Assembly: GCF_000147355.1 (NCBI RefSeq)
Contig: NC_014506.1
Span: 2,046,001-2,110,000, forward strand
Direction: 5' to 3'
Origin: Sulfurimonas autotrophica DSM 16294
GTDB taxonomy: Bacteria; Campylobacterota; Campylobacteria; Campylobacterales; Sulfurimonadaceae
Length of the DNA stretch: 64,000 bases
Shown here: positions 230-28,254 of the stretch, one piece after another
Layout: each line of letters begins with the position of its first letter
Numbering within the stretch: position 1 is the stretch's first letter
Position numbers and translations under genes: made by a program
Notes under the pieces: generated by a model
The model's database searches: none
What the model was told of the DNA's origin: nothing
What the model saw: the letters and a program-made list of their open reading frames with translations, nothing else

Positions 230-260
230 ATTATATAATTTTTTTGTGTACTGTTTGTGC
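230..260 (-). promoter_or_regulatory. Shared-box promoter 6, for the CopZ-like gene
   Basis: On the minus strand the 16-mer GCACAAACAGTACACA (260 to 245) is followed after exactly 9 nt by TATAAT (235 to 230). The start codon at 207 follows after a short leader. This is the most divergent box of the six, but the spacing to the -10 is identical. It lies back to back with promoter 1, with 17 nt between the boxes. Confidence 0.7.
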
Positions 261-277
261 TGTAATGTACTGCACGC

Positions 278-308
278 ACACAAATGCTACACACTAAAAC
301 TATATACT
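278..308 (+). promoter_or_regulatory. Shared-box promoter 1, for the YtkA/FixH-like gene
   Basis: The box ACACAAATGCTACACA (278-293) is followed after 9 nt by TATACT (303-308). The box contains ACACA twice, 11 bp apart, on one helical face. It occupies the -35 region, as expected for a class II activator of the OmpR/PhoB type (inference). Confidence 0.75.
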
Positions 309-338
309 TTTAGCAACAAAACACAAAAGGATGACACC

Positions 339-722
339 ATGAAAACTCTAGCAAAGATTTTTTTTACACTGCTCTTAGGAGCAACACTTGTTCAGGCGGC
401 ATTTAGCAAAGATGCAAAATTTAGAACAACAACAGTTCATATTACTGCGGACAAACCGCTTACAACCGGTTCAAACACAATTATTGTAACTATCAAAAAA
501 AACGGTAAACTTATAACTGATGCAAAAGTGGCACTCAAAGCATTTATGCCGGCAATGCCCGGCATGCCTGCAATGAGTTCAAAAGCAAATGCAACAAATA
601 TTGGCAGCGGAAAATATAAAGCAACAGTCAATCTTGCTATGAGCGGAACATGGCAGCTGCATATATTTATAACCCCTAAAAAAGGCAAAAGATCTCGTGT
701 AAAAACAACACTCAACTTTTAA
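339..722 (+). CDS. Exported YtkA/FixH-like protein with a Met-rich loop
   Basis: A 127-residue protein starting at ATG 339, just after an AAAGGATGA purine stretch; the upstream in-frame ATG at 246 would place the start before the promoter. Residues 1 to about 21 form a signal peptide (KIFFTLLLGATLVQA). The rest resembles the YtkA-like/FixH beta-sandwich, with GSNTIIVTIKKNGK, a variable loop and a terminal GTWQLHIFI strand. The loop MPAMPGMPAMSS holds four methionines in PxM spacing, which could bind Cu(I) in the periplasm (inference). Its neighbours are a CopZ-like chaperone and a copper ATPase. A role in periplasmic copper handling is plausible but not proven. Confidence 0.7.
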   Translation: MKTLAKIFFTLLLGATLVQAAFSKDAKFRTTTVHITADKPLTTGSNTIIVTIKKNGKLITDAKVALKAFMPAMPGMPAMSSKANATNIGSGKYKATVNLAMSGTWQLHIFITPKKGKRSRVKTTLNF

Positions 723-739
723 ATCCGGCACTAAAAAGC

Positions 740-1110
740 CAAAAAGGCAGAACCATATAAGTATGATAAAGATTATGTTGTCATATTGTCTGATTATTCC
801 GATGAAAAGCCCGCAAATATTTATAGAAAACTCAAGCTCTCTCCTGATTATTACAATTTTAATCAAAGAACTGTCGGGGATTTTTAGAGGCTTTTAAAGA
901 ACGTCAAATGTGGAACGGCGAAAAAATTAGACTCCGTTTTATCAATGCAGCGTCTATGACCTTTTTTGATGTGCGCAAAATGAAAGTTGTTGCGGCTGAC
1001 GGCAATGATATACAACCTGTGAATGTGGATGAGTTTCGCATTGGAGTTGCTGAAACCTATGATGTTTTTACCTAAAGTATTGACAGAAGCGGTTATACTC
1101 TTGGAAAGTC
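740..1110 (+). pseudogene. Remnant of a CopA-type multicopper oxidase
   Basis: Translated pieces match the periplasmic copper-resistance multicopper oxidase family. Frame 747-884 reads AEPYKYDKDYVVILSDYSDE and then DYYNFNQRTVGDF, and stops at TAG 885. A different frame, 887-1072, reads EAFKERQMW, then NGEKIRLRFINAASMTFFD, VVAADG and VDEFRIGVAETYDV, and stops at TAA 1073. Reading through that stop gives SIDRSGYTLGKS. The family normally has about 30-40 residues between MW and GEKxRLRFIN; here they are directly joined, so an internal deletion is likely. Both ends of the gene are also missing. It is a decayed copper oxidase inside the copper island, not a functional gene. Confidence 0.8.
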
Positions 1111-1122
1111 TCCTTTTTTGAC

Positions 1123-1153
1123 ACACAAACGCTACACAAACTCTCACTATAAT
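1123..1153 (+). promoter_or_regulatory. Shared-box promoter 2, for SHOCT-copper ATPase
   Basis: The box ACACAAACGCTACACA (1123-1138) is followed after 9 nt by TATAAT (1148-1153). The next gene starts at 1183. It sits immediately downstream of the multicopper oxidase remnant. Confidence 0.78.
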
Positions 1154-1182
1154 TTTATAAACTTAAAAAATAAGGATTTATT

Positions 1183-1377
1183 ATGCATGAGTGGGGATTT
1201 GGTATGAGTTTTGGATGGATTGTTCCGCTACTTTTTATTTTTGCTCTTTTTTATTTTATCAACAGCAATAATAAAAATGACATAGAATCAGCACAAGATA
1301 TTTTAGACCGAAAGTACGCAAACGGTGAAATAGATGAAGAAGAATACAAACGAAAAAAAGAGCAGCTTAAACATTGA
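1183..1377 (+). CDS. Small membrane protein with SHOCT domain
   Basis: A 64-residue protein. Residues about 9-27 form one membrane helix (FGWIVPLLFIFALFYFI). Residues about 35-64 are a SHOCT (short C-terminal) domain with the typical pattern A..ILDxRYAxGEIxxEEYxxKKxxL. AAGGA lies upstream of the ATG. It is the first gene of a two-gene unit, ending 14 nt before the copper ATPase start. SHOCT proteins are often found beside metal transporters; the exact function is unknown. Confidence 0.75.
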   Translation: MHEWGFGMSFGWIVPLLFIFALFYFINSNNKNDIESAQDILDRKYANGEIDEEEYKRKKEQLKH

Positions 1378-1391
1378 TTTGGAGGTGTATT

Positions 1392-3539
1392 ATGAGTGAG
1401 CAAAACAAAGACGAAGAAAATATTTCTTATACTTGTTCTATGCACCCGGAAATTATTCGTAATGAACCGGGAGACTGTCCGATATGCGGTATGCATCTTG
1501 AGCCTATAACTACTGTAGAGGCAAAAGAAAAAAACGAAGAACTTGATGATATGAGCCGCCGTTTTTGGGTCAGTACCGTCTTGTCAATTCCTCTTTTTAC
1601 ATTAACGATGATTAATGATTTAGCACCCCAATATATTCCATCTTCACTATCAGCGCAAATGATACAGTGGATTGAATTCTTTCTGACAACCCCTGTTGTT
1701 CTTTGGGGCGGCTGGCCTTTTTATGTCAAAGGATATCAGTCTGTAAAAACCTGGAATTTAAATATGTTTACGCTGATTTCTATGGGTGTGGGAGCTGCAT
1801 ACATCTACAGTCTTGTTGCACTTTTTCTACCTGAAATTTTTCCACCCCTTATGCATACAAAGGAGGGTGTCGTACATGTCTATTTTGAAACGGCAGCCAT
1901 CATTACCGCACTTGTTCTTTTAGGACAGGTCCTTGAACTACGTGCAAGGAGTAAAACAAATACAGCCATAAAAACTCTGCTTAATCTTGCACCCAAACAG
2001 GCACACAGAATTATAGATGACGGGGGCAATGAAGAAGATGTAAACCTCGAACTTGTCCATACCGGAGATAAGCTCAGAGTAAAACCGGGAGAGAAAATTC
2101 CTGTTGATGGAGTTGTTGTAGAAGGACAAAGTAATATTGACGAGTCTATGATAACAGGAGAGCCTGTTCTTGTACAAAAAACAGCAGGAGAGAATCTCAT
2201 AGGTGCAACAATCAATAAAAATGGGACATTGATAATGCAGGCGACAAAAGTAGGTAGTGATACTATGCTTGCACAGATTGTTCAAATGGTAGCACAGGCC
2301 CAACGCTCCCGTGCACCTATTCAACAGCTGGCTGACACGGTATCTAGTTACTTTGTACCCGCAGTTGTTCTTTCTGCCGTTTTTGCTTTTATAGGCTGGT
2401 GGGCTTTTGGACCCGAACCTCAGCTCACTTACGCAATTGTAGCGGCAGTCTCTGTTTTAATTATAGCCTGCCCGTGTGCCTTGGGACTTGCTACACCGAT
2501 TTCGATTATGGTGGGAACCGGTCGAGCAGCACTCTCAGGCATTTTGGTTAAAGATGCCAAAACGCTTGAAACTATGGAGAAAATAGACACATTGGTTGTA
2601 GACAAAACAGGAACCCTCACACTGGGGAAACCAAAAGTAACTGATTTTCTTACAACCGAAATGTATGACATAGATGAGCTTATAAAATATGCCGCTTCAC
2701 TAGAGCGCGCAAGTGAACATCCGCTTGCACAATCTGTCATAGAGTACGCAAAAGAGTCAAATATTTCACTCATTAACGTAGAAAACTTTGAAGCTGTCCC
2801 GGGTAAAGGTGTTATCGCGCAAATTGACGGTAAAAAGATAATTTTAGGAAGTGAAAAACTTTTAAAAGAGCAAGGCATTTCTATTGAAGATGCGAAAGAA
2901 AATGCAGATGCAATGAGAAATGATGCCAAAGGTATTATTTTTATGGCAATAGATGATAATTACTGCGCGATTATTGCTATAGAAGACCCTATAAAAGAAA
3001 CTTCAGTTGAAGCGGTACAGACATTAAATAATGAAGGCATAACCGTTGTAATGCTCAGCGGCGACAATGAATTTACAGCCAATGCCGTCGCCAAAAAACT
3101 TGGCATAGCAAAAGTTTATGCCAATGTTCTGCCTGACGGTAAAGCTGATGTTATAAAAGAGCTTCAAGGCAATGGAGCGCTTGTTGCAATGGCCGGTGAC
3201 GGTATAAACGATGCCCCTGCACTGGCACAGGCAAATGTCGGAATTGCTATGGGAACAGGAACAGATGTGGCAATTGAGAGTGCAGGAGTAACTCTTATAA
3301 AAGGAGACCTGCTTGGCATCGTCAAGGTACTCAAACTCTCGCGCGCCACCATGAAAAATATCAGACAAAATCTCTTTTTTGCTTTTGTTTACAACAGTGC
3401 AGGAGTTCCGGTTGCCGCGGGCGTGCTTTATCCATTTTTTGGTATTATTCTCTCCCCTATTATTGCAGCAGCGGCAATGAGTTTCAGTTCCGTTTCTGTC
3501 ATTACAAATGCTCTGCGTCTAAAAAATACGAAACTTTGA
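1392..3539 (+). CDS. copA: Cu(+)-exporting P1B-type ATPase (CopA/SilP type)
   Basis: A 715-residue heavy-metal P-type ATPase that probably pumps Cu(I) (or Ag) out of the cytoplasm. The ATG at 1392 is preceded by GGAGGTG, so it is preferred over the in-frame ATG at 1374 inside the SHOCT gene. It lacks an HMA domain and instead has a short metal-binding N-terminus, YTCSMHPE (13-20) and CPICGMH (29-35). CPC is at 360-362 in the transport helix, the phosphorylation loop DKTGTLT starts at Asp404, SEHPLA is the P1B HP motif, and GDGINDAP is at 602-609. It is co-transcribed with the SHOCT protein under promoter 2. The CPC motif together with the N-terminal domain supports a monovalent copper substrate; zinc or cadmium is less likely. 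Confidence 0.9.
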   Translation: MSEQNKDEENISYTCSMHPEIIRNEPGDCPICGMHLEPITTVEAKEKNEELDDMSRRFWVSTVLSIPLFTLTMINDLAPQYIPSSLSAQMIQWIEFFLTTPVVLWGGWPFYVKGYQSVKTWNLNMFTLISMGVGAAYIYSLVALFLPEIFPPLMHTKEGVVHVYFETAAIITALVLLGQVLELRARSKTNTAIKTLLNLAPKQAHRIIDDGGNEEDVNLELVHTGDKLRVKPGEKIPVDGVVVEGQSNIDESMITGEPVLVQKTAGENLIGATINKNGTLIMQATKVGSDTMLAQIVQMVAQAQRSRAPIQQLADTVSSYFVPAVVLSAVFAFIGWWAFGPEPQLTYAIVAAVSVLIIACPCALGLATPISIMVGTGRAALSGILVKDAKTLETMEKIDTLVVDKTGTLTLGKPKVTDFLTTEMYDIDELIKYAASLERASEHPLAQSVIEYAKESNISLINVENFEAVPGKGVIAQIDGKKIILGSEKLLKEQGISIEDAKENADAMRNDAKGIIFMAIDDNYCAIIAIEDPIKETSVEAVQTLNNEGITVVMLSGDNEFTANAVAKKLGIAKVYANVLPDGKADVIKELQGNGALVAMAGDGINDAPALAQANVGIAMGTGTDVAIESAGVTLIKGDLLGIVKVLKLSRATMKNIRQNLFFAFVYNSAGVPVAAGVLYPFFGIILSPIIAAAAMSFSSVSVITNALRLKNTKL

Positions 3540-3542
3540 AAG

Positions 3543-3571
3543 AAAATAGTCCTAATCAAGGACTATTTTTT
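3543..3571. terminator. Bidirectional terminator between convergent genes
   Basis: A perfect 11-bp stem pairs AAAATAGTCCT (3543-3553) with AGGACTATTTT (3559-3569) around a 5-nt loop, with T-runs on both strands. It follows the copper ATPase and contains the stop codon of the minus-strand gene at 3552. Confidence 0.85.
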
Positions 3572-4952
3572 CTTTAAAGGCTACAATATGTCCATCTAAA
3601 TTCAGCTCTTTTTTTACCATCGCTTTAAATGATTTTTGACTTTCCAATTCTCCATGCACAAAAAACACTTTTTTTAAATCTTTCATACTTGAAATCCATT
3701 CCATAATACCATCTCTGTCCGCATGAGCAGAAAAGCCGTTGATGGTATGAATAGAAGATTTTACAATAATATCTTCACCCAAAATATTTATCCACTTCGC
3801 TCCATCAACAATTTCACGTCCCAAAGTACCTTCAGCCTGAAATCCTACAAAAACCACTGCATTACGTTTGTCCCAAATTCTGTGTTTAAAGTGATGCGTA
3901 ATTCTTCCACCGTTGCACATTCCTGCTCCGGCTATGATAATAGCACGGCTTTGTACGTCGTTTATTCCTTTTGAAGCTTCCGGTGTTTCAGTATATATGA
4001 GTGATTCAAAATTAAAAACAGTCCCATCTTGTTGAACGTTTTTTTGGCATTTGTTCGTTAATTCATCAACATACGTTCTATACACTGCCGTTGCCTTTGT
4101 TGCCATTGGAGAGTCTAAAAAAACTTTACATTTAGGTAATTCCCCGCTCTCATACATGTCTCGCAGAATGCATAGTAATTCCTGTGTTCTCTCCACTGCA
4201 AAAGATGGAATAAGCACATTTCCATGGCTGTTTAAAGTTTTTACAATAACATCTTTAAACTCTTTGATTGTCGCGTCAATCGGCTGATGATCTCTGTCTC
4301 CATACGTTGTTTCCACATAGAGGCTCTGTGTTTTGTCACATTTATTCAAGTTAGGCATTACCAAGCCGTTATCATTGCCAATATCTCCGGAAAATACTAT
4401 GGTATGAGAATCACTTTTTTCCATGTAAGAAAGTTCTATAAAAGCTGAGCCCAAAATATGTCCGGCATTACGATAGATAAAACTGACCCCTTCACATAAA
4501 TTATAATATTTATCATATTCCGGATTAATCCATTCCATCATTTGAAAAGTTTTTTCAACATCCAAGGGCTCATAAAGCGGCTTAGAGAGTTTTTTTTCTC
4601 TCCCTTTACGCAATGCTTTTCTGTAACGTGTTTGAAAATCTTCATTCATTATCTTTGCGCTGTCCATTAAAATTATCTGCGCTAAATCCATTGTGGCAGA
4701 AGTTGCATAAATTTTCCCCTTAAAGCCTTCTTTTACCAGCTTAGGAATGCGCCCGACATGATCGAGGTGGGCATGTGTTACTAAAAGATAGTCTATACTT
4801 GCAGGCTCAAAATAAAATGCTTCTTCATTTTTATCTTCATCTAACCCCTGAAACATCCCACAGTCTATCATGATTTTTACACCGCCGACTTCAAACACAT
4901 GACATGAACCTGTCACCTCTTTCGTTGCACCGTAAGATCTTACTATTGCCAT
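3552..4952 (-). CDS. Metallo-beta-lactamase/beta-CASP RNase family protein
   Basis: A 466-residue protein with an N-terminal MBL fold. The zinc motif HAHLDH is at residues 60-65, with later GHILGSA and SGDIGND metal/active-site segments. A beta-CASP region follows, then a C-terminal RMMBL-type segment with GFSAHAD. This architecture is shared by mRNA 3'-end processing and exonuclease enzymes and their bacterial homologues (Ysh1/YsiF-like). It probably cleaves RNA in the cytoplasm. All metal ligands visible to me are present. It does not carry the shared box, so its place in the metal island may be incidental. Confidence 0.82.
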   Translation of the reverse strand: MAIVRSYGATKEVTGSCHVFEVGGVKIMIDCGMFQGLDEDKNEEAFYFEPASIDYLLVTHAHLDHVGRIPKLVKEGFKGKIYATSATMDLAQIILMDSAKIMNEDFQTRYRKALRKGREKKLSKPLYEPLDVEKTFQMMEWINPEYDKYYNLCEGVSFIYRNAGHILGSAFIELSYMEKSDSHTIVFSGDIGNDNGLVMPNLNKCDKTQSLYVETTYGDRDHQPIDATIKEFKDVIVKTLNSHGNVLIPSFAVERTQELLCILRDMYESGELPKCKVFLDSPMATKATAVYRTYVDELTNKCQKNVQQDGTVFNFESLIYTETPEASKGINDVQSRAIIIAGAGMCNGGRITHHFKHRIWDKRNAVVFVGFQAEGTLGREIVDGAKWINILGEDIIVKSSIHTINGFSAHADRDGIMEWISSMKDLKKVFFVHGELESQKSFKAMVKKELNLDGHIVAFKEKIVLD

Positions 4953-5126
4953 TATAAATCCTTTATATAGTCTACATGTAAAGATTATACGCCGATATTT
5001 CTTAAAAAAAACAATTTGCTATTTCCTCGGCACACATTCAAACAAACTTGCATTAATACAAAGCCGCTTTTTTTAGCAATAATTTCAACTCTTTGCATAC
5101 CGAAACTGTTATCCTCTTTTTCTGTC

Positions 5127-6824
5127 TCATAAGCAAGGTTTTCCTGCCTGAGTGTTGTATAAAAAATGGCACTTCGGTAGTTGTTTCTTTATAACATCTG
5201 CAATACGAAAAGAGTTTGCATAAATCGTCCAGGTATACGGAACACTTCCTCCTGTGGGCATAAATGAGGCATCAGCGACATAAAGATTCTCCAAATCATG
5301 TGCCTTGCAGTTTTTATCTAGTACCGATTTTTTTGCATCATTTCCAAATCTGCATCCACCGGCAACAAGATTAGGAGGCGGTGCTGCAGAAATAGAATAA
5401 TCAATCTCCTCACAGCCGAGTTTTTGTAATACTTTGACGCTTTTTTTTGCCAAATATTCTCCTACAGCCAAATCATGCGGATGTCCGTATAAATTAATCA
5501 CGCCCACAGGTACACCGTATTTGTCTTTTACTGTTTCATCAACACTTACAAAACATTTATCTGTAGGAAGCCAGTCGTTAAACACTTCAAAGGTAAGCAC
5601 TCTTGAAGTCATCAATCTTTTATGGAGCTTTTCCTTGAGTGCAGCGCCCCACAAAAGGTTCCCCTCCTCATCATACACCTCACGCATCACACGTGAAATG
5701 ATATTTTGATGCTCGAATAAAAAGTCTACTGTTCCTCCTTTGTATTTTTTGTCTTCTTCACTATATTCATACCAGTCCTGCAAAGAACGGTTAAAAAAGA
5801 CACCGACCTCCATCAGCTCTTTTTGTTGCTGCAGTGTCAATTTTTCAAAAACAAATCGTCCGCTGCCGCTGCCCCCTGCTGAAAATATTAAATTTTTGCC
5901 TACTTCCCCGCTGGAATTTGCCAAACCGTTAGGAAAATACCTGTTTTTAGAATTAAGCAGCAGTCTTGAACTCTCAATAGCCTGCGCCGCAAGTACAAAA
6001 ATTTTGGCCTGTACAGAGTGTCTGATACCGTATTTTGTGTAATAGTAGGCTCTTGTTACCTTTTTATTTGTACTCTCAAGTTTATACACAAAAGCATCTG
6101 TAATGATTTTAGCATCACACTTTTGAAGCAGAGCTGCACGTCCGCTTCCTTTTGCACCGCTTGCACAACCGTAACTGCCGCAAAAATTAGAATAGTAACA
6201 GCCGTTCCGTCCAAGTGCATTTTGAGATAATATCGCGCGGGGCGTAGGAATGGGCACATAACCCAACTCTTTACATGCCCCGTCAAACCACTTTGTAACA
6301 CCGTTTGTCTGCAGCTGGGGGTAAAAAAAATCTGCACTTGAGCGAGGTTCAAGATGCTTATGCTGTACAATTTTACCGCTTACCCCGACAACTTTTTCAA
6401 CCTTGTCATAGTATGGTTCAAGCTCTTCATAGCTGATAGGCCAATCAACCACATTTGCGCCTTTTATTTTGCCATAGACACTTTTAAGTTTAAAATCATT
6501 GGGCTTGAGTCTGTGAAAATATCCGCTCATCAGGTTTGACGAGCCGCCCACAAGTGAACCGTTCCAAAAATTCCAGCTTGATTCTTCACCGTCATAACGC
6601 TCAAATGTACCGTCCTCTTTATACTCGTTTATAATATGTTTTTGTTCATTCAAAGGCGGGGTAAACATATCACGTCGCGTGACGCCGATTTCATCTTTGT
6701 TAAAATCATTTTCTGTATAATTCTCGCCCTTTTCCAAAACTACAACACTGAATCCTGCATTTGCAAGCTCATACGCTATAGGCGAGCCGCCTGCTCCACT
6801 GCCGATTATACATATATCAACCAT
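5127..6824 (-). CDS. GMC-family FAD oxidoreductase (gluconate dehydrogenase-like large subunit)
   Basis: A 565-residue flavoprotein. GSGAGG at 8-13 is the FAD Rossmann motif. A mid-protein cysteine cluster (GCYYSNFCGSYGCASGAKGS) resembles that of membrane-linked gluconate/sorbitol dehydrogenase large subunits. The C-terminus has the GMC signature region (YVADASFMPTGGSVPYTWTIYANSFRIAD in two parts). No Tat signal is visible; the partner at 6842 carries one and may co-export it. It is the last gene of the 7531-to-5127 unit, 17 nt after its partner. The substrate is unknown, probably an alcohol or sugar. About 170 nt of non-coding sequence follow; I see no gene there. Confidence 0.8.
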   Translation of the reverse strand: MVDICIIGSGAGGSPIAYELANAGFSVVVLEKGENYTENDFNKDEIGVTRRDMFTPPLNEQKHIINEYKEDGTFERYDGEESSWNFWNGSLVGGSSNLMSGYFHRLKPNDFKLKSVYGKIKGANVVDWPISYEELEPYYDKVEKVVGVSGKIVQHKHLEPRSSADFFYPQLQTNGVTKWFDGACKELGYVPIPTPRAILSQNALGRNGCYYSNFCGSYGCASGAKGSGRAALLQKCDAKIITDAFVYKLESTNKKVTRAYYYTKYGIRHSVQAKIFVLAAQAIESSRLLLNSKNRYFPNGLANSSGEVGKNLIFSAGGSGSGRFVFEKLTLQQQKELMEVGVFFNRSLQDWYEYSEEDKKYKGGTVDFLFEHQNIISRVMREVYDEEGNLLWGAALKEKLHKRLMTSRVLTFEVFNDWLPTDKCFVSVDETVKDKYGVPVGVINLYGHPHDLAVGEYLAKKSVKVLQKLGCEEIDYSISAAPPPNLVAGGCRFGNDAKKSVLDKNCKAHDLENLYVADASFMPTGGSVPYTWTIYANSFRIADVIKKQLPKCHFLYNTQAGKPCL

Positions 6825-6841
6825 TCTTATTTTTCCTCACG

Positions 6842-7336
6842 TTACATGTAAGCTTGTTTTGGGCTTGGTTTCCCGCCTTGAAACTGCAGCCATTTCCAGC
6901 CGGCTTCATGGTTATTTCCGCCGTATATCGGGTCACCGAGCATTGCTTCAAACATATAGTTCATCACATTATATACAAAGCTATCCCCCCATTCTGTTTT
7001 GGTAACAGTTGCCAGAATATTTTGTCTCTGTTTTGAAGAAAGCTTTGCATACTCTTGTTTATATTGCGTAATACTCTCTTCATTGAGCCATTTCACGCCA
7101 TTTTTTAAAAAAGTTTTGTCTGCATCACTGATACGAAAATGATTAAAAACTATCTGCATATATGAAGTGGTCTTTATACCGAGTTCTTGTGCATGTGGAA
7201 AAAGATCTTTATGCATAAGTCCAAGCGTCTGCATTGGGGTTGTTACACCGAAAAGGTTACATCCGTCCATTAAAAAAACAGCACTTGATAAAAAACCTGC
7301 CTTTAAAAAATTTCTTCTTGATCGCAATGCCGACAT
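6842..7336 (-). CDS. Gluconate 2-dehydrogenase subunit 3-like protein, Tat-exported
   Basis: About 164 residues. It starts with a twin-arginine signal (SRRNFLKAGFLSSAVFL) followed by DGC, a possible lipobox. The body fits the Gluconate_2-dh3 family, which forms the small partner of GMC dehydrogenases. The in-frame GTG at 7339 directly follows the upstream stop codon; the ATG at 7336 is the alternative and is used here. The stop codon lies inside a TTACATGTAA palindrome (6842-6851). It probably brings the GMC subunit at 5127 to the periplasm or membrane. Confidence 0.75.
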   Translation of the reverse strand: MSALRSRRNFLKAGFLSSAVFLMDGCNLFGVTTPMQTLGLMHKDLFPHAQELGIKTTSYMQIVFNHFRISDADKTFLKNGVKWLNEESITQYKQEYAKLSSKQRQNILATVTKTEWGDSFVYNVMNYMFEAMLGDPIYGGNNHEAGWKWLQFQGGKPSPKQAYM

Positions 7337-7339
7337 CAC

Positions 7340-7531
7340 TTAATCTTTAAAAAGTTTGTCAAAAAACGACTCTTCTTTTTTGGTTGCATTGGTATGTTTA
7401 CGCTCATCTACAAAGTCAGGATCACCTTTTTCAAGCATATTTTTTGAAGGTTTTTTTATATGTTTTTTGGGCTTTGCCTCTTTTATAAAGCCTGTATTTA
7501 CCGTGCGGGTAGCACCATGAGGGATACACAT
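7340..7531 (-). CDS. Small hypothetical protein, first gene of the GMC operon
   Basis: A 63-residue lysine-rich protein preceded by a strong AAGGAGG site. It has no signal peptide, membrane segment or recognised domain. One cysteine lies at residue 2 (MCIPHG), and the C-terminus FFDKLFKD is amphipathic. It is fused transcriptionally to the Gluconate_2-dh3 and GMC genes and is the gene nearest the shared-box promoter 3. Function unknown. Confidence 0.65.
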   Translation of the reverse strand: MCIPHGATRTVNTGFIKEAKPKKHIKKPSKNMLEKGDPDFVDERKHTNATKKEESFFDKLFKD

Positions 7532-7560
7532 AACATCCTCCTTTTACGTGTTTTAAAAAT

Positions 7561-7591
7561 ATTATACTTAAAATCTGTGTAGCAATTGTGT
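7561..7591 (-). promoter_or_regulatory. Shared-box promoter 3, for the 63-aa/GMC operon
   Basis: On the minus strand ACACAATTGCTACACA (7591 to 7576) is followed after 9 nt by TATAAT (7566 to 7561). It ends 2 nt before the stop codon of the upstream FMN-enzyme gene, so a separate promoter is placed exactly at the gene boundary. The first start codon is at 7531. Confidence 0.78.
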
Positions 7592-7592
7592 A

Positions 7593-9344
7593 CTAATCCA
7601 CTAAAGCTTCTTCAAAATAATGTTCAACATTCATATATGTTTTTCCGCTGTAATCTCTAAAAATAAGGTTCTCTTTACTAAGTTTAGATATATGATTGAT
7701 TCCCATAATAGCAAGTAAATTGCGTATACCTGAGAGTAACTGTCCATGATAAGATGCAATATTTATAGCTTTTTTCTCTATTAGAAATGAAGCTCTTTTT
7801 TTCTTGTCCTGTGTTGCCAGACCTACCGGGCAGGCACGTCCATGTGCACCGGAGCACTCTCGTGCACGTATACATCCTGCACTCATCATAAATGCTCTTG
7901 CAATTGCTACATAATCAGCTCCCAGGCCAAAAAGTACTATGGCATCATCAGGTGTTAAAACTTTTTCACTTGCAATAAGTTTAACTTTTTCACGTACTTC
8001 GGCTTTTTTTAACTCACTGTCTGCGATATAAAGTGCTTTTGTTATCGTCATACCGACACTCAACATCATCTCCAAAGGTGCAGCACCGCTCCCGCCGTCA
8101 CCGCCGTCTATGGTTATAAAATCAGGGTAAGCATTTGAGCCTGTCTCCAAACGCTCTTTCATTAAATCTGCATACTGAGTAAAATTTTCTTGTGAAGATA
8201 TAACGATTTTCACACCTACGGGCTTCCCGGACAACTCTTTGAGTCTGCCTATAAAATCAAAAAGTTCTTCTACGGTATGGGCAAAAGGAAACTGATTTGG
8301 AGAGAACAAGTCTTTATGAGCTTCTACCCCTCGATAATAGGCGATTTCTTCACTTACCTTAGATGCAAGCAGCTTGCCACCCGTCTGCTTTGCACCCTGT
8401 GCCATTTTTATCTCCGTCATTTTACAAAAACGCATCGTTTTTTGGTATCGTTCTTCACAAAAGTTTCCTTCTTTGTCACGCACACCATACAAGCCGCTTC
8501 CCATCTGAAAAATAATATCTGGCATGTCATCAGGAACCTCTGAAGGAAAAGTTGCCACAGGAGCATCCCAATTAACTCGGTAAAAGACCAATTCAGTTTT
8601 ATCAAAGAGGTAACTGTCGGGAGCAGGAGTCGTCACAACCATATGTTTATATACCTTTTGTGCCGCTGCCCCGTTGATGAAGATTTTTACAAGTTTATAA
8701 ACATTTTTTGCAAAAAATGTTCCCTCCTGTGTTTGAAAAAATTTACACTCTCTTGTATATTTATGCGTATAAAAAAAGTTTGAAGTGAGACTTCCTTCTC
8801 CTGTATTTATAGGAAACTTTCCGTGATATGCCCCTTTGGTAAAGGCACGTGTTCCCTCAGGAGAGATAGCACCGTCACTCATAGCACTTCGTCCGAGAAT
8901 AGATCTCGTTTTAAAAGGCTTGAGAGAATTTTCTCCAAAAGTTACAGAAAAATCATCGCTCACATCTTGGGTATTGAGAACGCAGTTGGCATTTTTTATA
9001 CCCAGTCTCGCACTATGCTGAGGCTGTCCCGGAGAAAAAGAGGCATATGCCGATTTACGCTCAGCCGAATCATAAACCCATTTTACTTTATCAAATGACT
9101 CATAAAATTTTTCATCTCCGAAATACTGACGCATCGGATCGCGAAGTGCATAGAACAAATAACGTATACGACCGATTAGAGGATAATTGATCAGCAGCTG
9201 ATTCTCTCTTTGAATATACCTGTCATATATAAATAAAACAATGGAAGCAACAATAAAAAGAATAAAAAATGCTTTAAGTAAAAACATCAATATAGGAAAG
9301 TGTATCTCCCCTATTTCATGTGTGAAATGGACTAAGGCTTCCAT
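7593..9344 (-). CDS. FMN-binding glutamate synthase-like protein with N-terminal membrane helix
   Basis: A 583-residue protein. Residues about 17-42 form a membrane helix. The rest corresponds to the FMN/central domain of glutamate synthase (Glu_synthase family), with TIDGGDGGSGAAPLEMM in the FMN barrel and a late Cys cluster CIRARECSGAHGRACPVGLATQ. It lacks the glutaminase domain of true GltB, so glutamate synthesis is not assumed. Members are often called 'FMN-binding glutamate synthase family'. It begins 3 nt after the DoxX stop and is likely co-transcribed from promoter 4. A membrane redox role is possible. Confidence 0.82.
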   Translation of the reverse strand: MEALVHFTHEIGEIHFPILMFLLKAFFILFIVASIVLFIYDRYIQRENQLLINYPLIGRIRYLFYALRDPMRQYFGDEKFYESFDKVKWVYDSAERKSAYASFSPGQPQHSARLGIKNANCVLNTQDVSDDFSVTFGENSLKPFKTRSILGRSAMSDGAISPEGTRAFTKGAYHGKFPINTGEGSLTSNFFYTHKYTRECKFFQTQEGTFFAKNVYKLVKIFINGAAAQKVYKHMVVTTPAPDSYLFDKTELVFYRVNWDAPVATFPSEVPDDMPDIIFQMGSGLYGVRDKEGNFCEERYQKTMRFCKMTEIKMAQGAKQTGGKLLASKVSEEIAYYRGVEAHKDLFSPNQFPFAHTVEELFDFIGRLKELSGKPVGVKIVISSQENFTQYADLMKERLETGSNAYPDFITIDGGDGGSGAAPLEMMLSVGMTITKALYIADSELKKAEVREKVKLIASEKVLTPDDAIVLFGLGADYVAIARAFMMSAGCIRARECSGAHGRACPVGLATQDKKKRASFLIEKKAINIASYHGQLLSGIRNLLAIMGINHISKLSKENLIFRDYSGKTYMNVEHYFEEALVD

Positions 9345-9347
9345 CTT

Positions 9348-9788
9348 TTAATTTTTCTCTCCAAAGATAAGTCTGTCTAATGAAAATTTACCGGCACCGT
9401 AAGAAAGAAATATCAATAAAAATGCCATATAATAGAGTGGAATTTCAAAACCGTTGTCTCCTGCAGAAAAACCGTTATGCAGATGCACTGTTACTATGGC
9501 AACTATCATAATTATAATCATAGGAATAGAAATAATCCTTGTAAAAAGTCCTAAGGTCAGTAAAACTACACCTGTTATTTCTGTACTGGCAGCCATGTAA
9601 GCGTTGAGTGTCGGAAACGGGATGCCCATAGAACCGAACCATTCGGCAACTGACTTTATATCATTCCACTTCATCATAGCAGGTTCATAAAAACCGTATG
9701 CTACCAATAACCTTGCAAAAAGCAGACTTAATGATTGCAAATACTCACCCAAACGTGAAAATTCAAGATATAATTTTTTGATACCCAT
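9348..9788 (-). CDS. DoxX family membrane protein
   Basis: A 146-residue protein with four predicted helices and a DoxX pattern (LLFARLLVAYGFYEPAMMKW, GIPFPTLNAYMAASTEITGVVLLTLGLFTR in two parts). A GAG-type Shine-Dalgarno lies upstream. It is the first gene of a unit with the FMN protein at 7593. DoxX proteins (HvfD/BufD-like) accompany KCG-type copper-binding peptides in some bacteria, and one such candidate is encoded just upstream at 9982-10251. The link is suggestive only. Confidence 0.78.
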   Translation of the reverse strand: MGIKKLYLEFSRLGEYLQSLSLLFARLLVAYGFYEPAMMKWNDIKSVAEWFGSMGIPFPTLNAYMAASTEITGVVLLTLGLFTRIISIPMIIIMIVAIVTVHLHNGFSAGDNGFEIPLYYMAFLLIFLSYGAGKFSLDRLIFGEKN

Positions 9789-9815
9789 AATAAACTCCTT
9801 AAGTTTTATAAAAGT

Positions 9816-9846
9816 ATTGTACCTCTACTTTGTGTAGCAAGTGTGC
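9816..9846 (-). promoter_or_regulatory. Shared-box promoter 4, for doxX
   Basis: On the minus strand GCACACTTGCTACACA (9846 to 9831) is followed after 9 nt by TACAAT (9821 to 9816). The doxX start is at 9788. The box differs from the others mainly at the first and sixth bases. Confidence 0.74.
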
Positions 9847-9941
9847 AATATTTATTTGTGCTATACTTCAAGAACAAAAGCAAACGTTAAAAAGAAGATG
9901 ATGGAAAAGTTATTTTTGCAGAGGATAGAATGAGACTGAAG

Positions 9942-9970
9942 TTGTAACAGAGAAAAACTCTCTGTTACAA
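9942..9970. terminator. Hairpin downstream of the KCG-repeat gene
   Basis: A perfect 11-bp stem pairs TTGTAACAGAG (9942-9952) with CTCTGTTACAA (9960-9970) around 7 nt. There is no clear T-run on the minus strand, so it may be a terminator of weak type or a 3' stabiliser of the short KCG transcript. Confidence 0.55.
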
Positions 9971-9992
9971 GAAGCAACTACTTAGTTGCTTC
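9971..9992. repeat. Second hairpin across the stop codon of the KCG gene
   Basis: GAAGCAACTA (9971-9980) pairs perfectly with TAGTTGCTTC (9983-9992) over a 2-nt loop. The 3' arm encodes the last residues and stop of the KCG protein. It abuts the preceding hairpin. Confidence 0.6.
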
Positions 9993-10251
9993 CACATTTA
10001 CCTTTACCGCATTTCATAGATTTTTTCTTCTCTTCTTTTTTTTCTTCTTTCATTGAAGCACCGCATTTTCCACCTTCTTTTTTCATTGAAGCACCACATT
10101 TAGAACCATCAGCTTTTTTCATTGGTTTTTCCATTGAAGAACCACATTTTCCTGCACCACATTTCATATCACCCGCACTTAGTGAAACGGCACCTAATCC
10201 TGTAAATAGAGCTGCTCCTAAAAGTAGAGCTGTAAGATTTAACTTTTTCAT
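9982..10251 (-). CDS. Secreted KCG-repeat protein, HvfA/bufferin-like candidate
   Basis: An 89-residue protein. Residues 1-26 form a signal peptide (LTALLLGAALFTGLGAVSLSA). The mature part is low-complexity and Lys/Met/Cys-rich, with six KCG motifs (MKCGAGKCGSS, SKCGAS, GGKCGAS, MKCGKGKCGSN). Exported peptides with repeated EGKCG motifs, such as HvfA, are modified by MNIO (DUF692) enzymes and bind copper (family knowledge). Here the motif is K-C-G but not strictly EGKCG, and no MNIO or DUF2063 gene lies in the window. A direct periplasmic metal-buffering role is an alternative. It is expressed from shared-box promoter 5. Confidence 0.68.
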   Translation of the reverse strand: MKKLNLTALLLGAALFTGLGAVSLSAGDMKCGAGKCGSSMEKPMKKADGSKCGASMKKEGGKCGASMKEEKKEEKKKSMKCGKGKCGSN

Positions 10252-10285
10252 TCTGTTATCCTTTGATATTTTAAGTTAGAACAAT

Positions 10286-10327
10286 TGTAACATAAAAATA
10301 AGTTTTTTTTATGCGACATATGTTACA
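10286..10327 (-). promoter_or_regulatory. Leader hairpin of the KCG transcript
   Basis: The arms ATGTTACA (10320-10327) and TGTAACAT (10286-10293) can pair across 26 nt that include a U-rich stretch. They lie just inside the predicted 5' end of the minus-strand mRNA. This leader is about 75 nt, longer than those of the other five promoters. The purpose is unknown; a 5' stabiliser is possible. Confidence 0.4.
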
Positions 10328-10335
10328 TTAGAAAA

Positions 10336-10366
10336 ATTATACATTTTAAGTGTGTAGTATTTGTGT
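10336..10366 (-). promoter_or_regulatory. Shared-box promoter 5, for the KCG gene
   Basis: On the minus strand ACACAAATACTACACA (10366 to 10351) is followed after 9 nt by TATAAT (10341 to 10336). On the plus strand the same box lies 16 nt before a TATAAT at 10383-10388 that could serve the P-type ATPase at 10433, so it might act on both. Confidence 0.76.
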
Positions 10367-26465: not shown

Positions 26466-27119
26466 ATGAACATACTTTTAATGGAAGATGACCCTGTTTT
26501 ATCAGATATTTTATTAGATTTTTTACGCGAGGAATGGGATGTAGATTATGCCTATAGTTCCCAAGAGGTTTATGAACGCCTTGAGAGTTCCAACTATGAT
26601 TTATTCATATTTGACATCAATGTAATGGGAAAGAACGGCGTAGAACTTCTCAAAGAGCTTCGTAAATTTAGCAACAATACACCGGCTATCTTTATAACAG
26701 CCTACAGAGACACCGAGCATCTCCAGCGTGCTTTTGATGCCGGTGCACATGACTATATCAAAAAACCCTTTGAACTTGAAGAGCTACATGCCCGAATATT
26801 GAGCATCAAAAGAGTTTTCAATATTGAAACCAATGAATATATTCCTATCGGGGATAAGATCGTATTTTATCCCATGCAAAGAACAGTACATGTAAACAAC
26901 AATCAAGTCTCTCTAACGGCAAAAGACGCTATGCTATTGTCCTATTTTCTAAAAAACAAAGCACGGCTCATCAGCAGTGAAGAGCTCAGTCAGAATATTT
27001 GGGATTTTGACTCGCTGCCAAGCGATGCTACTCTGCGCTCACACATTAGAACACTCAGAGAAATCATCGGAAAAGAGAAAATAAAAACAATACGCGGCGA
27101 GGGTTACATGTATGAATAA
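26466..27119 (+). CDS. OmpR-family response regulator
   Basis: A 217-residue regulator. The receiver domain has acidic pocket EDD (7-9), phosphorylation site Asp50 and Lys in IKKPFEL. The C-terminal winged helix includes ATLRSHIRTLREIIG. Its last 8 nt overlap the histidine kinase gene. OmpR-type regulators bind direct repeats about 11 bp apart, which is the layout of the shared box in the metal island, but no such box lies near this gene, so no link is claimed. Confidence 0.9.
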   Translation: MNILLMEDDPVLSDILLDFLREEWDVDYAYSSQEVYERLESSNYDLFIFDINVMGKNGVELLKELRKFSNNTPAIFITAYRDTEHLQRAFDAGAHDYIKKPFELEELHARILSIKRVFNIETNEYIPIGDKIVFYPMQRTVHVNNNQVSLTAKDAMLLSYFLKNKARLISSEELSQNIWDFDSLPSDATLRSHIRTLREIIGKEKIKTIRGEGYMYE

Positions 27120-28254
27120 AATTACAAAAAAATCCTTTTATTCCTTTTTGGCACTCTACCTTGTAAGCTCTTTTCTATTTTTATCGCTCGCGGCCTATTG
27201 GTTTTACAATTCGCAGGTTGCCATGGAGAAAAATGCTAACTTTTACAAAATGAACCATACAGCCGACCTTGTCAGTGCTAAAGTTATTGAAGCCCATATG
27301 CATCATACAAAATTTAAACTTGACAAATTCCGGCGAGAAGCAGTTGCCCTTTTTGATGCAAACAAACATCTGCTTTATGGAAGAGTTGTGCAGGATGTTG
27401 ATTTCTCAAAAGATTTTTACATGAAAGATGGTATTTTTACGCTTGTCACACAAAGAACGGCGGGACACTTACATGTAAAGTATATAGTCATACAAAGTGA
27501 TGAATGTGTAAAAAATATTCAGGTCATAAAAAACAAGATTGCCTATGCCGTCATCATTACAGCATTTTTAATCATAATTATTGCCGTATTTTTATCTTAT
27601 ATATTTTTAAAACCGCTCAAAGATAAAATGCAGGAGATAGAAGATTTCGTCAAAGACACGACACATGAGCTCAACACACCCATAACCGCCATTATGATGA
27701 GTGCTTCCAGACTCAAAGCCAAAAAAGATTATGATGAAAAAACAATCAAAAATATTTCTATCAGTACAAAGCAGCTCTATGACATATATGCATCTTTAAG
27801 TTTTTTAAGTTTTGACAACAGCAGCGAAGAAGCTGTTGAACTTATGTTTGATGAAATTGTTAAAGAAGATATTGCTTATTTTAGTGAACTTTTAGAAAAA
27901 AAGAAGATACAGCTGCAAACACAATTGGCACCATGTCCTGTAAAAATAGCACCGACAAAAGCGAAAATGCTTATAAACAACCTGCTTGGCAATGCCATTA
28001 AATATTCAAATCCAAACACAAACATAAAAATCACAACCACAAAAAATTCTCTCATCATCCAAGATGAGGGTATAGGTATCAAAAAAGACAAACTGAATAA
28101 AATTTTCAAACGTTTTGTACGGGCAAACTCCTATGCCGGCGGATTCGGTGTAGGGCTTAATATTGTGGAGGGTATTGTAAACGAGTACGGTTTTCACATT
28201 GATATAAAATCAAAAGAAAATATCGGTACTATGATTACTATTATATTTGCTTAA
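27112..28254 (+). CDS. Sensor histidine kinase
   Basis: A 380-residue membrane kinase with helices near 10-32 and 145-165, the latter reading AYAVIITAFLIIIIAVFLSY. The H box is DTTHELNTPITAIM, the N box has NNLLGNAIKYS, and the G boxes are DEGIGIKKD and GGFGVGLNIV. The periplasmic loop between the helices is about 110 residues and shows no known fold to me. Partner of the overlapping response regulator; the signal is unknown. Confidence 0.9.
   Translation: MNKITKKSFYSFLALYLVSSFLFLSLAAYWFYNSQVAMEKNANFYKMNHTADLVSAKVIEAHMHHTKFKLDKFRREAVALFDANKHLLYGRVVQDVDFSKDFYMKDGIFTLVTQRTAGHLHVKYIVIQSDECVKNIQVIKNKIAYAVIITAFLIIIIAVFLSYIFLKPLKDKMQEIEDFVKDTTHELNTPITAIMMSASRLKAKKDYDEKTIKNISISTKQLYDIYASLSFLSFDNSSEEAVELMFDEIVKEDIAYFSELLEKKKIQLQTQLAPCPVKIAPTKAKMLINNLLGNAIKYSNPNTNIKITTTKNSLIIQDEGIGIKKDKLNKIFKRFVRANSYAGGFGVGLNIVEGIVNEYGFHIDIKSKENIGTMITIIFA

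Follow-up and report, generated by a model that had tools for sequence, protein, structure and literature searches.

The stretch of DNA analysed here, referred to as the window, comprises 64,000 nucleotides (nt) of Sulfurimonas autotrophica DSM 16294 (contig NC_014506.1, positions 2,046,001–2,110,000 of the forward strand), and close to its left end are six promoters that share a 16-bp box upstream of the −10 element. Promoter 1 (230–260, minus strand; box 245–260, −10 element TATAAT at 230–235) serves a gene for a CopZ-like protein, the N-terminal part of which is encoded at 1–207 on the minus strand (zf_CopZ, 62.4 bits; Fer2_BFD at 21.4 bits, under its cut-off of 26); the gene leaves the window and is followed, to the left, by genes for the response regulator RR-A and its sensor kinase HK-A. 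Promoter 2 (278–308, plus strand; box 278–293, TATACT at 303–308) serves a gene for a YtkA-domain secreted protein (339–722, plus), a homologue of Helicobacter-type CrdA with about 35% identity. Promoter 3 (1123–1153, plus strand; box 1123–1138, TATAAT at 1148–1153) precedes genes for a small SHOCT-domain protein (1183–1377, plus) and a copper-translocating P-type ATPase (1392–3539, plus; TIGR01511, 606.5 bits against a cut-off of 397). The remaining three promoters and their genes are on the minus strand. Promoter 4 (7561–7591; box 7576–7591, TATAAT at 7561–7566) serves the GMC operon, which is led by a 63-residue protein without a Pfam match (7340–7531) and includes a Gluconate_2-dh3 protein (6842–7339) and a GMC oxidoreductase (5127–6824). 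Promoter 5 (9816–9846; box 9831–9846, TACAAT at 9816–9821) serves DoxX (9348–9788) and an enzyme with a Glu_synthase domain of the flavin mononucleotide (FMN) type (7593–9344), and promoter 6 (10336–10366; box 10351–10366, TATAAT at 10336–10341) serves a secreted KCG-repeat protein of the HvfA family (9982–10251). In our interpretation, these sites are most likely the operators of a CrdR/DccR-type copper regulon read by an OmpR-family regulator: RR-A, its paralogue RR-B, or both.

The six boxes are all present at the positions and on the strands given in an earlier note on this DNA and, as that note had claimed, exactly 9 nt separate the box from the −10 element (TATAAT, TATACT or TACAAT) in every case. 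From the end of the box to the ATG, the distances read from the sequence are 37, 45, 44, 44, 42 and 99 nt for promoters 1 to 6, so that five are indeed alike (37–45 nt) and the sixth differs. The description of the box itself as near-identical with an 11-bp repeat was correct in part. CACA at box positions 2–5 and TACACA at positions 11–16 are constant in all six and produce an invariant recurrence of CAC at 11 bp, but the centre is variable, as seen on comparing box 1 (GCACAAACAGTACACA) with box 5 (GCACACTTGCTACACA), and is looser than the consensus that had been proposed. The combined pattern CACA-N5-TACACA-N9-TANNNT is found six times in the window and in none of 100 dinucleotide shuffles, and the core CACA-N5-TACACA without the −10 element is found at the same six places only, compared with an expectation of 0.12.

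The exact combined pattern was sought in the complete genome of the organism (2,153,198 bases in one contig), where it has 10 matches, eight of them between 2,031,256 and 2,056,365. Allowing one mismatch gives 13 matches versus five for the reversed pattern. A looser 14-base box taken alone, with two mismatches, is found at 142 places versus 53 for its reversed control and, because it is so frequent, the full pattern is the informative unit. All 10 exact matches end 21–84 nt upstream of the ATG of a reading frame. The regulon is larger than the six promoters proposed previously: besides the six sites in the window, two are at Cus-type efflux genes just to its left, one is at dsbD, and one is at a gene for an Lcl_C-domain protein. 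Of the two on the left, one precedes an outer-membrane efflux gene (CusC) followed by a CusB-type gene (L031 5320 and 6495), and the other precedes a CusA/CzcA pump (L031 14832; TIGR00914, 1005.8 bits; cut-off, 701.45). A matrix built from the six window boxes and run over 102 kb found eight sites above 17 bits, each with a −10 element at 9 nt, whereas the next-best site scored 14.3 bits and had no −10 element; since only window sites entered the matrix, the two sites on the left are independent finds. The distant boxes end 21 nt before the DsbD gene (box at 967605) and 30 nt before the Lcl_C-domain gene. The Cus-type genes (L031 5320–17954) are in two parts about 7 kb apart, each with its own box; unrelated genes separate the parts, some of which resemble, on inspection by eye, a MazEF pair and a RhuM gene.

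The spacing is also maintained in relatives. In 80 loci around relatives of RR-A (961,150 bases), scanned with a matrix from the ten sites of this genome, 151 boxes of at least 11 bits were found, compared with 88 in shuffled and 109 in reversed sequence. With a −10 element required to score at least 3 bits, 59 of the 151 boxes have one at 9 nt, although these are not independent events because the loci are related; the 25 other spacings between 0 and 25 nt have 0–9 cases each (mean, 3), and shuffled and reversed sequence have two cases each at 9 nt. The bases of the spacer vary across these loci while its length stays fixed. A half-site spacing scan gave a smaller second peak, CACA-N8-ACACA with a −10 element at 7 nt (11 rows), in which the total length is that of the main form. 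Good sites in these loci are often at a YtkA-like gene; a box directly upstream of RR-A was considered and rejected as a general feature: in most of the 80 loci, the top-scoring site in the preceding 700 nt is noise. In 20 stretches from 13 other genomes of the genus, 33 sites were found in 12 of the 13 genomes, the stretch from G068 having none. Twenty-six of them precede orthologues of the targets described here (KCG protein, seven; CusC, YtkA, Gluconate_2-dh3 and DoxX, four each; CusA, two; DsbD, one); of the other seven, four were assigned by eye, three to proteins that are KCG-like or comparably rich in cysteine and the fourth to a CopZ-like gene, and three have another or no recognisable target. 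One nearly complete genome in two contigs (G108) has seven of these target kinds, two of them with variant boxes. Variant boxes at L318 18677 and also in L063, L080 and L102 precede a small protein starting with MIYK or MVYK that appears, by eye, to be DUF302-like. Across 100 genomes of the genus, exact matches are found in 54, with 160 in total versus 13 for the reversed pattern.

Random occurrence of the box, without a fixed distance to the −10 element, would have undermined the regulatory interpretation, but it is ruled out by the shuffles, the reversed pattern and the spacing scans in the genome and the 80 loci. The related view that the boxes reflect chance or purely inherited similarity within a duplicated segment, with no regulatory meaning, could draw on the concentration of eight of the ten exact sites in one 25-kb region. 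It is extremely improbable in view of the same shuffles, the constancy of the spacing around a variable spacer, and the presence of a box at a crdA-type gene in a second family of this order. Beyond the genus, many of 200 genomes of the phylum have exact matches, mostly one per genome, and such single matches may be due to chance. Those followed up were in 20 Helicobacter-like genomes (g18), parts of g32, one f1/g6 genome, one f1/g4 genome and two f2/g34 loci. Boxes outside the genus were found at YtkA, at CusC and at a relative of the 63-residue protein; at the two f2/g34 loci (L321 and L322), no recognisable target was seen.

The occurrence in Helicobacter-like genomes gives the regulon its likely identity, since the same site precedes a known copper-defence gene there, and the six-promoter set therefore looks like a group of copper-stress genes. 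A YtkA-domain secreted (CrdA-like) protein is encoded in all 20 g18 genomes, and in 18 of these an exact box with its −10 element at 9 nt ends 26–52 nt upstream of the gene, with positions matched by hand; a putative operator before a crdA-type gene, as expected of a CrdR regulon, is thus found in the window and in these 18 genomes. The other two have one mismatch each at the CrdA-like gene (TACACG and TCCACA). There are 20 exact matches in g18 altogether, including the 18 at the CrdA-like gene. Four match places were inspected, of which three are at the CrdA-like gene and the fourth (L305, G117:C1:1505745) is a second exact crdA-type box with a −10 element, away from crdA. Where reading frames were listed (two loci), a TolC-like gene comes next, and one locus also has a CzcB-like gene, as judged by eye. 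The gene order in g18 (family f2), fumC, crdA, crdB, czcB, is one that we take to be that of H. pylori. In three g18 genomes, a regulator search gave best scores of 196–201 bits versus 128–139 for the next. The system proposed here is of a kind already known, namely copper regulons of the CrdRS type with operators of OmpR type. It resembles CrdRS of H. pylori (HP1365/HP1364), which activates crdAB-czcBA with copper, in that its regulators and kinases are related to those of CrdRS, its targets include efflux and CrdA-like genes, and the same box-N9-(−10) arrangement is found at the CrdA-like gene of Helicobacter-like genomes, but it differs in having ten promoters, two paralogous regulatory systems, and the additional targets HvfA-like protein, DoxX with the FMN enzyme, the GMC operon, CopZ-like protein and DsbD. 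PMC9927306 attributes to Waidner et al. the finding that the sequence bound by CrdR at crdA is 21 nt long. The likeness of our site to that operator concerns its location upstream of a crdA-type gene.

The geometry is shared more widely. In PhoB/OmpR-type promoters, 11-bp direct repeats take the place of the −35 element, and the promoters described here have the 11-bp direct repeat, the fixed distance to the −10 element and candidate regulators of OmpR type in common with them, while the sequence and the genes differ. The box of Campylobacter jejuni DccRS, as reportedly described by Wosten in 2010, is WTTCAC-N6-TTCACW, and the arrangement CAC-N8-CAC-N10-(−10) would then be the same in the two systems; unlike the boxes described here, DccRS has TTCAC half-sites, and its targets are different. 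TTCAC-N6-TTCAC-N10-TANNNT is found in 22 of 22 Campylobacter-like (f3/g14) genomes, which had been preselected for a relative of RR-B, at 1–5 sites each (reversed control, four in all); 10 of 17 other genomes scanned alongside also have one or two, and the S. autotrophica genome has none.

RR-A (L031 19062–19709, minus strand) begins 291 nt to the left of the window and, together with HK-A (L031 17951–19069, minus), belongs to the operon that box 1 precedes; the pair is located beside CusA. A search with RR-A identified RR-B (26466–27119, plus strand; 47% identity), which is followed by the kinase HK-B (27112–28254, plus; 41% identity with HK-A). The earlier assertion that the window lacks a gene for the regulator is thus wrong or incomplete, since one candidate pair is inside it and the other just outside. 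The expectation of an OmpR-type activator agrees with the domain content of both candidates. RR-A has Response_reg and Trans_reg_C domains (Pfam), RR-A and RR-B match OmpR-type models (NCBIfam), and the conserved aspartate D50 of the receiver domain is invariant in an alignment of 13 regulators. In a tree of 43 rows, RR-A, RR-B and the Helicobacter and Campylobacter regulators that we take to be CrdR-like and DccR-like are in a 30-row group (support 100/99), apart from regulators presumed, likewise from gene content and recall, to be ArsR- and HP1043-like; its inner order is partly unsupported and long branches were flagged. A further regulator of the same tree group is encoded at G000:C1:970513–971160 (L336), about 2.9 kb from the box at dsbD.

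The distribution of the two regulators was compared with that of the boxes in the 100 genomes of the genus, many of which are incomplete assemblies. RR-B orthologues (identity of at least 61%) are found in 39; RR-A was scored at 69% identity or more, so that two intermediates (60% and 54%) counted as absent. Exact boxes are present in all 17 genomes with both regulators, all 22 with RR-B only, eight of 21 with RR-A only, and seven of 40 with neither, where the eight matches are to be compared with five for the reversed control. Thus, they accompany RR-B in 39 of 39 genomes (Fisher p = 1e-15, uncorrected for ancestry); for RR-A, the corresponding figure is 25 of 38, and p is 0.12 among genomes lacking RR-B. 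Half-sites were tallied in 24 genomes, 12 from each single-regulator class, using a pattern that favours no particular form of the second half-site (150 rows; reversed control, 35). Of the 12 RR-A-only genomes, nine have CTCACA (20 rows) and four have TACACA (14 rows), while in RR-B-only genomes TACACA is found in all 12 (27 rows), TGCACA in six (8 rows), and CTCACA solely inside a third type, CACAAT-N5-CACAATT. This third type is present in five RR-A-only and nine RR-B-only genomes and probably belongs to a third related system. In at least nine genomes (e.g. G031:C1:298831, G062:C1:1494692 and G032:C1:136549), it is located, with the same distance to the −10 element, 1.2–1.5 kb beyond a further OmpR-type paralogue.

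RR-A as the sole reader is weakened by the co-occurrence classes and the half-site tally. The proposal that RR-A/HK-A alone reads the boxes here, with RR-B a separate system having merely look-alike sites, accords with the position of RR-A and HK-A behind box 1 and with the five and six exact boxes kept by the RR-A-only genomes G094 and G096, but the same boxes are found at the same orthologous genes in RR-B-only genomes, and we consider the proposal unlikely. The converse, in which RR-B/HK-B alone reads TACACA boxes and RR-A has its own set of sites, would fit the constant presence of boxes with RR-B, including the 22 genomes without RR-A, and the half-site preferences of the two classes. The presumed recognition helices also differ (RT..K in RR-A, RSHIR in RR-B), and a divergent box is found upstream of RR-B in six of 44 rows from five genomes. 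This converse is likewise unlikely: G094 (one contig, 99% complete; RR-A with 90% identity) has no RR-B, and yet its five exact boxes precede CusC, CusA, the GMC operon, DoxX and KCG, and in S. autotrophica it is RR-A, rather than RR-B, that is part of a box-driven operon. The association with RR-B, together with the retention of boxes in G094, suggests that both regulators can act on the window boxes, an arrangement that we put forward tentatively and at somewhat below an even chance. No clear change in the recognition helix that would account for the use of TACACA was seen in genomes near that of S. autotrophica.

The signal to which these promoters respond is suggested by the genes and the kinases. 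The earlier proposal of a link with copper is reinforced by the box-driven CusC and CusA, the copper P-type ATPase, the HvfA-like protein and the box at Helicobacter-type crdA. Among 91 kinase rows (57 of class A, 31 of class B and three Helicobacter-like, after removal of repeats; the two S. autotrophica kinases were added later and may count twice), Met63 and His119 of the sensor region (HK-B numbering) are alone, on the N-terminal side of the catalytic histidine, in showing complete identity, with H, M, C, D, E, Y, W, K and R as the residue types counted. Kinases of a further class, "other" (50 before removal of repeats), were aligned but left out of the count. The invariant methionine and histidine would fit a copper site. 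Alternatively, the signal could be nitrosative or thiol/redox stress, the copper genes being part of a wider envelope response; the served genes include dsbD, DoxX, the GMC oxidoreductase and the FMN enzyme, and H. pylori CrdRS is reported, in the accessible part of PMC9927306, to respond to nitric oxide as well. This alternative is improbable, because genes for efflux RND components, the copper P-type ATPase, and CrdA-like, CopZ-like and HvfA-like proteins predominate, and because, according to PMC12319023 and PMC9696931, CrdAB-CzcBA of H. pylori is induced by copper by way of CrdRS.

In the copper regulon that we favour, the six sites would be operators for a response to copper, or possibly to a wider metal or thiol stress. 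A phosphorylated response regulator, probably a head-to-tail dimer, would occupy both CACA half-sites, which recur at 11 bp and substitute for a −35 element, and would recruit RNA polymerase to the −10 element located 9 nt downstream. Regulation is likely to be by the paralogous two-component systems RR-A/HK-A and RR-B/HK-B, the kinases of which probably sense periplasmic copper via the invariant methionine and histidine. RR-A/HK-A would be autoregulated because its genes follow box 1 as part of the CopZ-like operon. The genes activated would be those for Cus-type efflux, the P-type ATPase, the CrdA/YtkA-like, CopZ-like and HvfA-like proteins, DoxX with the FMN enzyme, the GMC operon and DsbD.

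Several observations weigh against this interpretation. The box alone, at 11 bits, is only moderately above chance in the 80 loci, and the signal is the box plus its spacing. The co-occurrence of boxes and regulators is uncorrected for shared ancestry and includes many incomplete assemblies. No box adjoins RR-B in S. autotrophica, and TACACA may be read mainly by a regulator other than RR-A because RR-A-only genomes favour CTCACA. Two other regulators of this genome also belong to the 30-row tree group. In the accessible part of an H. pylori RNA-Seq study of nitric oxide, crdA is absent among the CrdRS-dependent genes (PMC9927306). With regard to subfamily, the system is like CusRS/CopRS in placing Cus-type efflux and a copper ATPase under two-component control, but RR-A and RR-B score only 88.1 and 99.6 bits with the heavy-metal response regulator model TIGR01387 (cut-off, 279.2), and the kinases 85.9 and 78.4 bits with TIGR01386 (cut-off, 292.55). 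A CusR/CopR-subfamily regulator is excluded by these curated cut-offs.

The KCG protein has the KCG repeats in a secreted precursor that characterise HvfA/EGKCG bufferin-type metallophores, which are ribosomally synthesized and post-translationally modified peptides. Its match to NF050137 is marginal (21.0 bits; cut-off, 19.5), it has no Pfam match, and its signal peptide was judged by eye. The MNIO (DUF692) modifying enzyme, sought with PF05114, was found in none of 15 genomes of the genus, including that of S. autotrophica, while two of 14 control genomes, Caulobacter among them, were positive. The KCG protein may be an unmodified metallophore or may be modified by something else. Behind the YtkA/CrdA-like gene, 723–1080 contains what is left of a gene for a multicopper oxidase (908–1072 matches PF00394 with 43 bits); at the matching place in a relative (L318 16257–17957), there is an intact multicopper oxidase of 566 residues followed by a protein that looks, by eye, like an outer-membrane protein.

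A literature search in which most subscription journals were outside coverage found no description of such a regulon in Sulfurimonas; as far as could be seen, the extent of the operator, the two paralogous systems and the added targets are new. A broader proposition, to which we give slightly less than even odds, is that one geometry (CAC-N8-CAC, 10 nt before the −10 element) serves the CrdR/DccR-type family across the Campylobacterales, and that paralogous sensors within a cell are separated or merged by some two bases that precede the second CACA (TA or CT, or else the CACAAT...CACAATT type). In S. autotrophica, two copper-type sensors would be merged on a single regulon, among whose products would be an HvfA-like metallophore that matures without its customary modifying enzyme. 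The operator provides a concrete pattern with which genomes can be scanned for CrdR-type copper systems of the Campylobacterota, and it ties to such systems the GMC operon, DoxX with the FMN enzyme, the HvfA-like peptide and DsbD, for none of which is copper control in this phylum known to us. The paralogous regulators and the three half-site types form a natural series in which insulation versus convergence of two-component systems may be followed.

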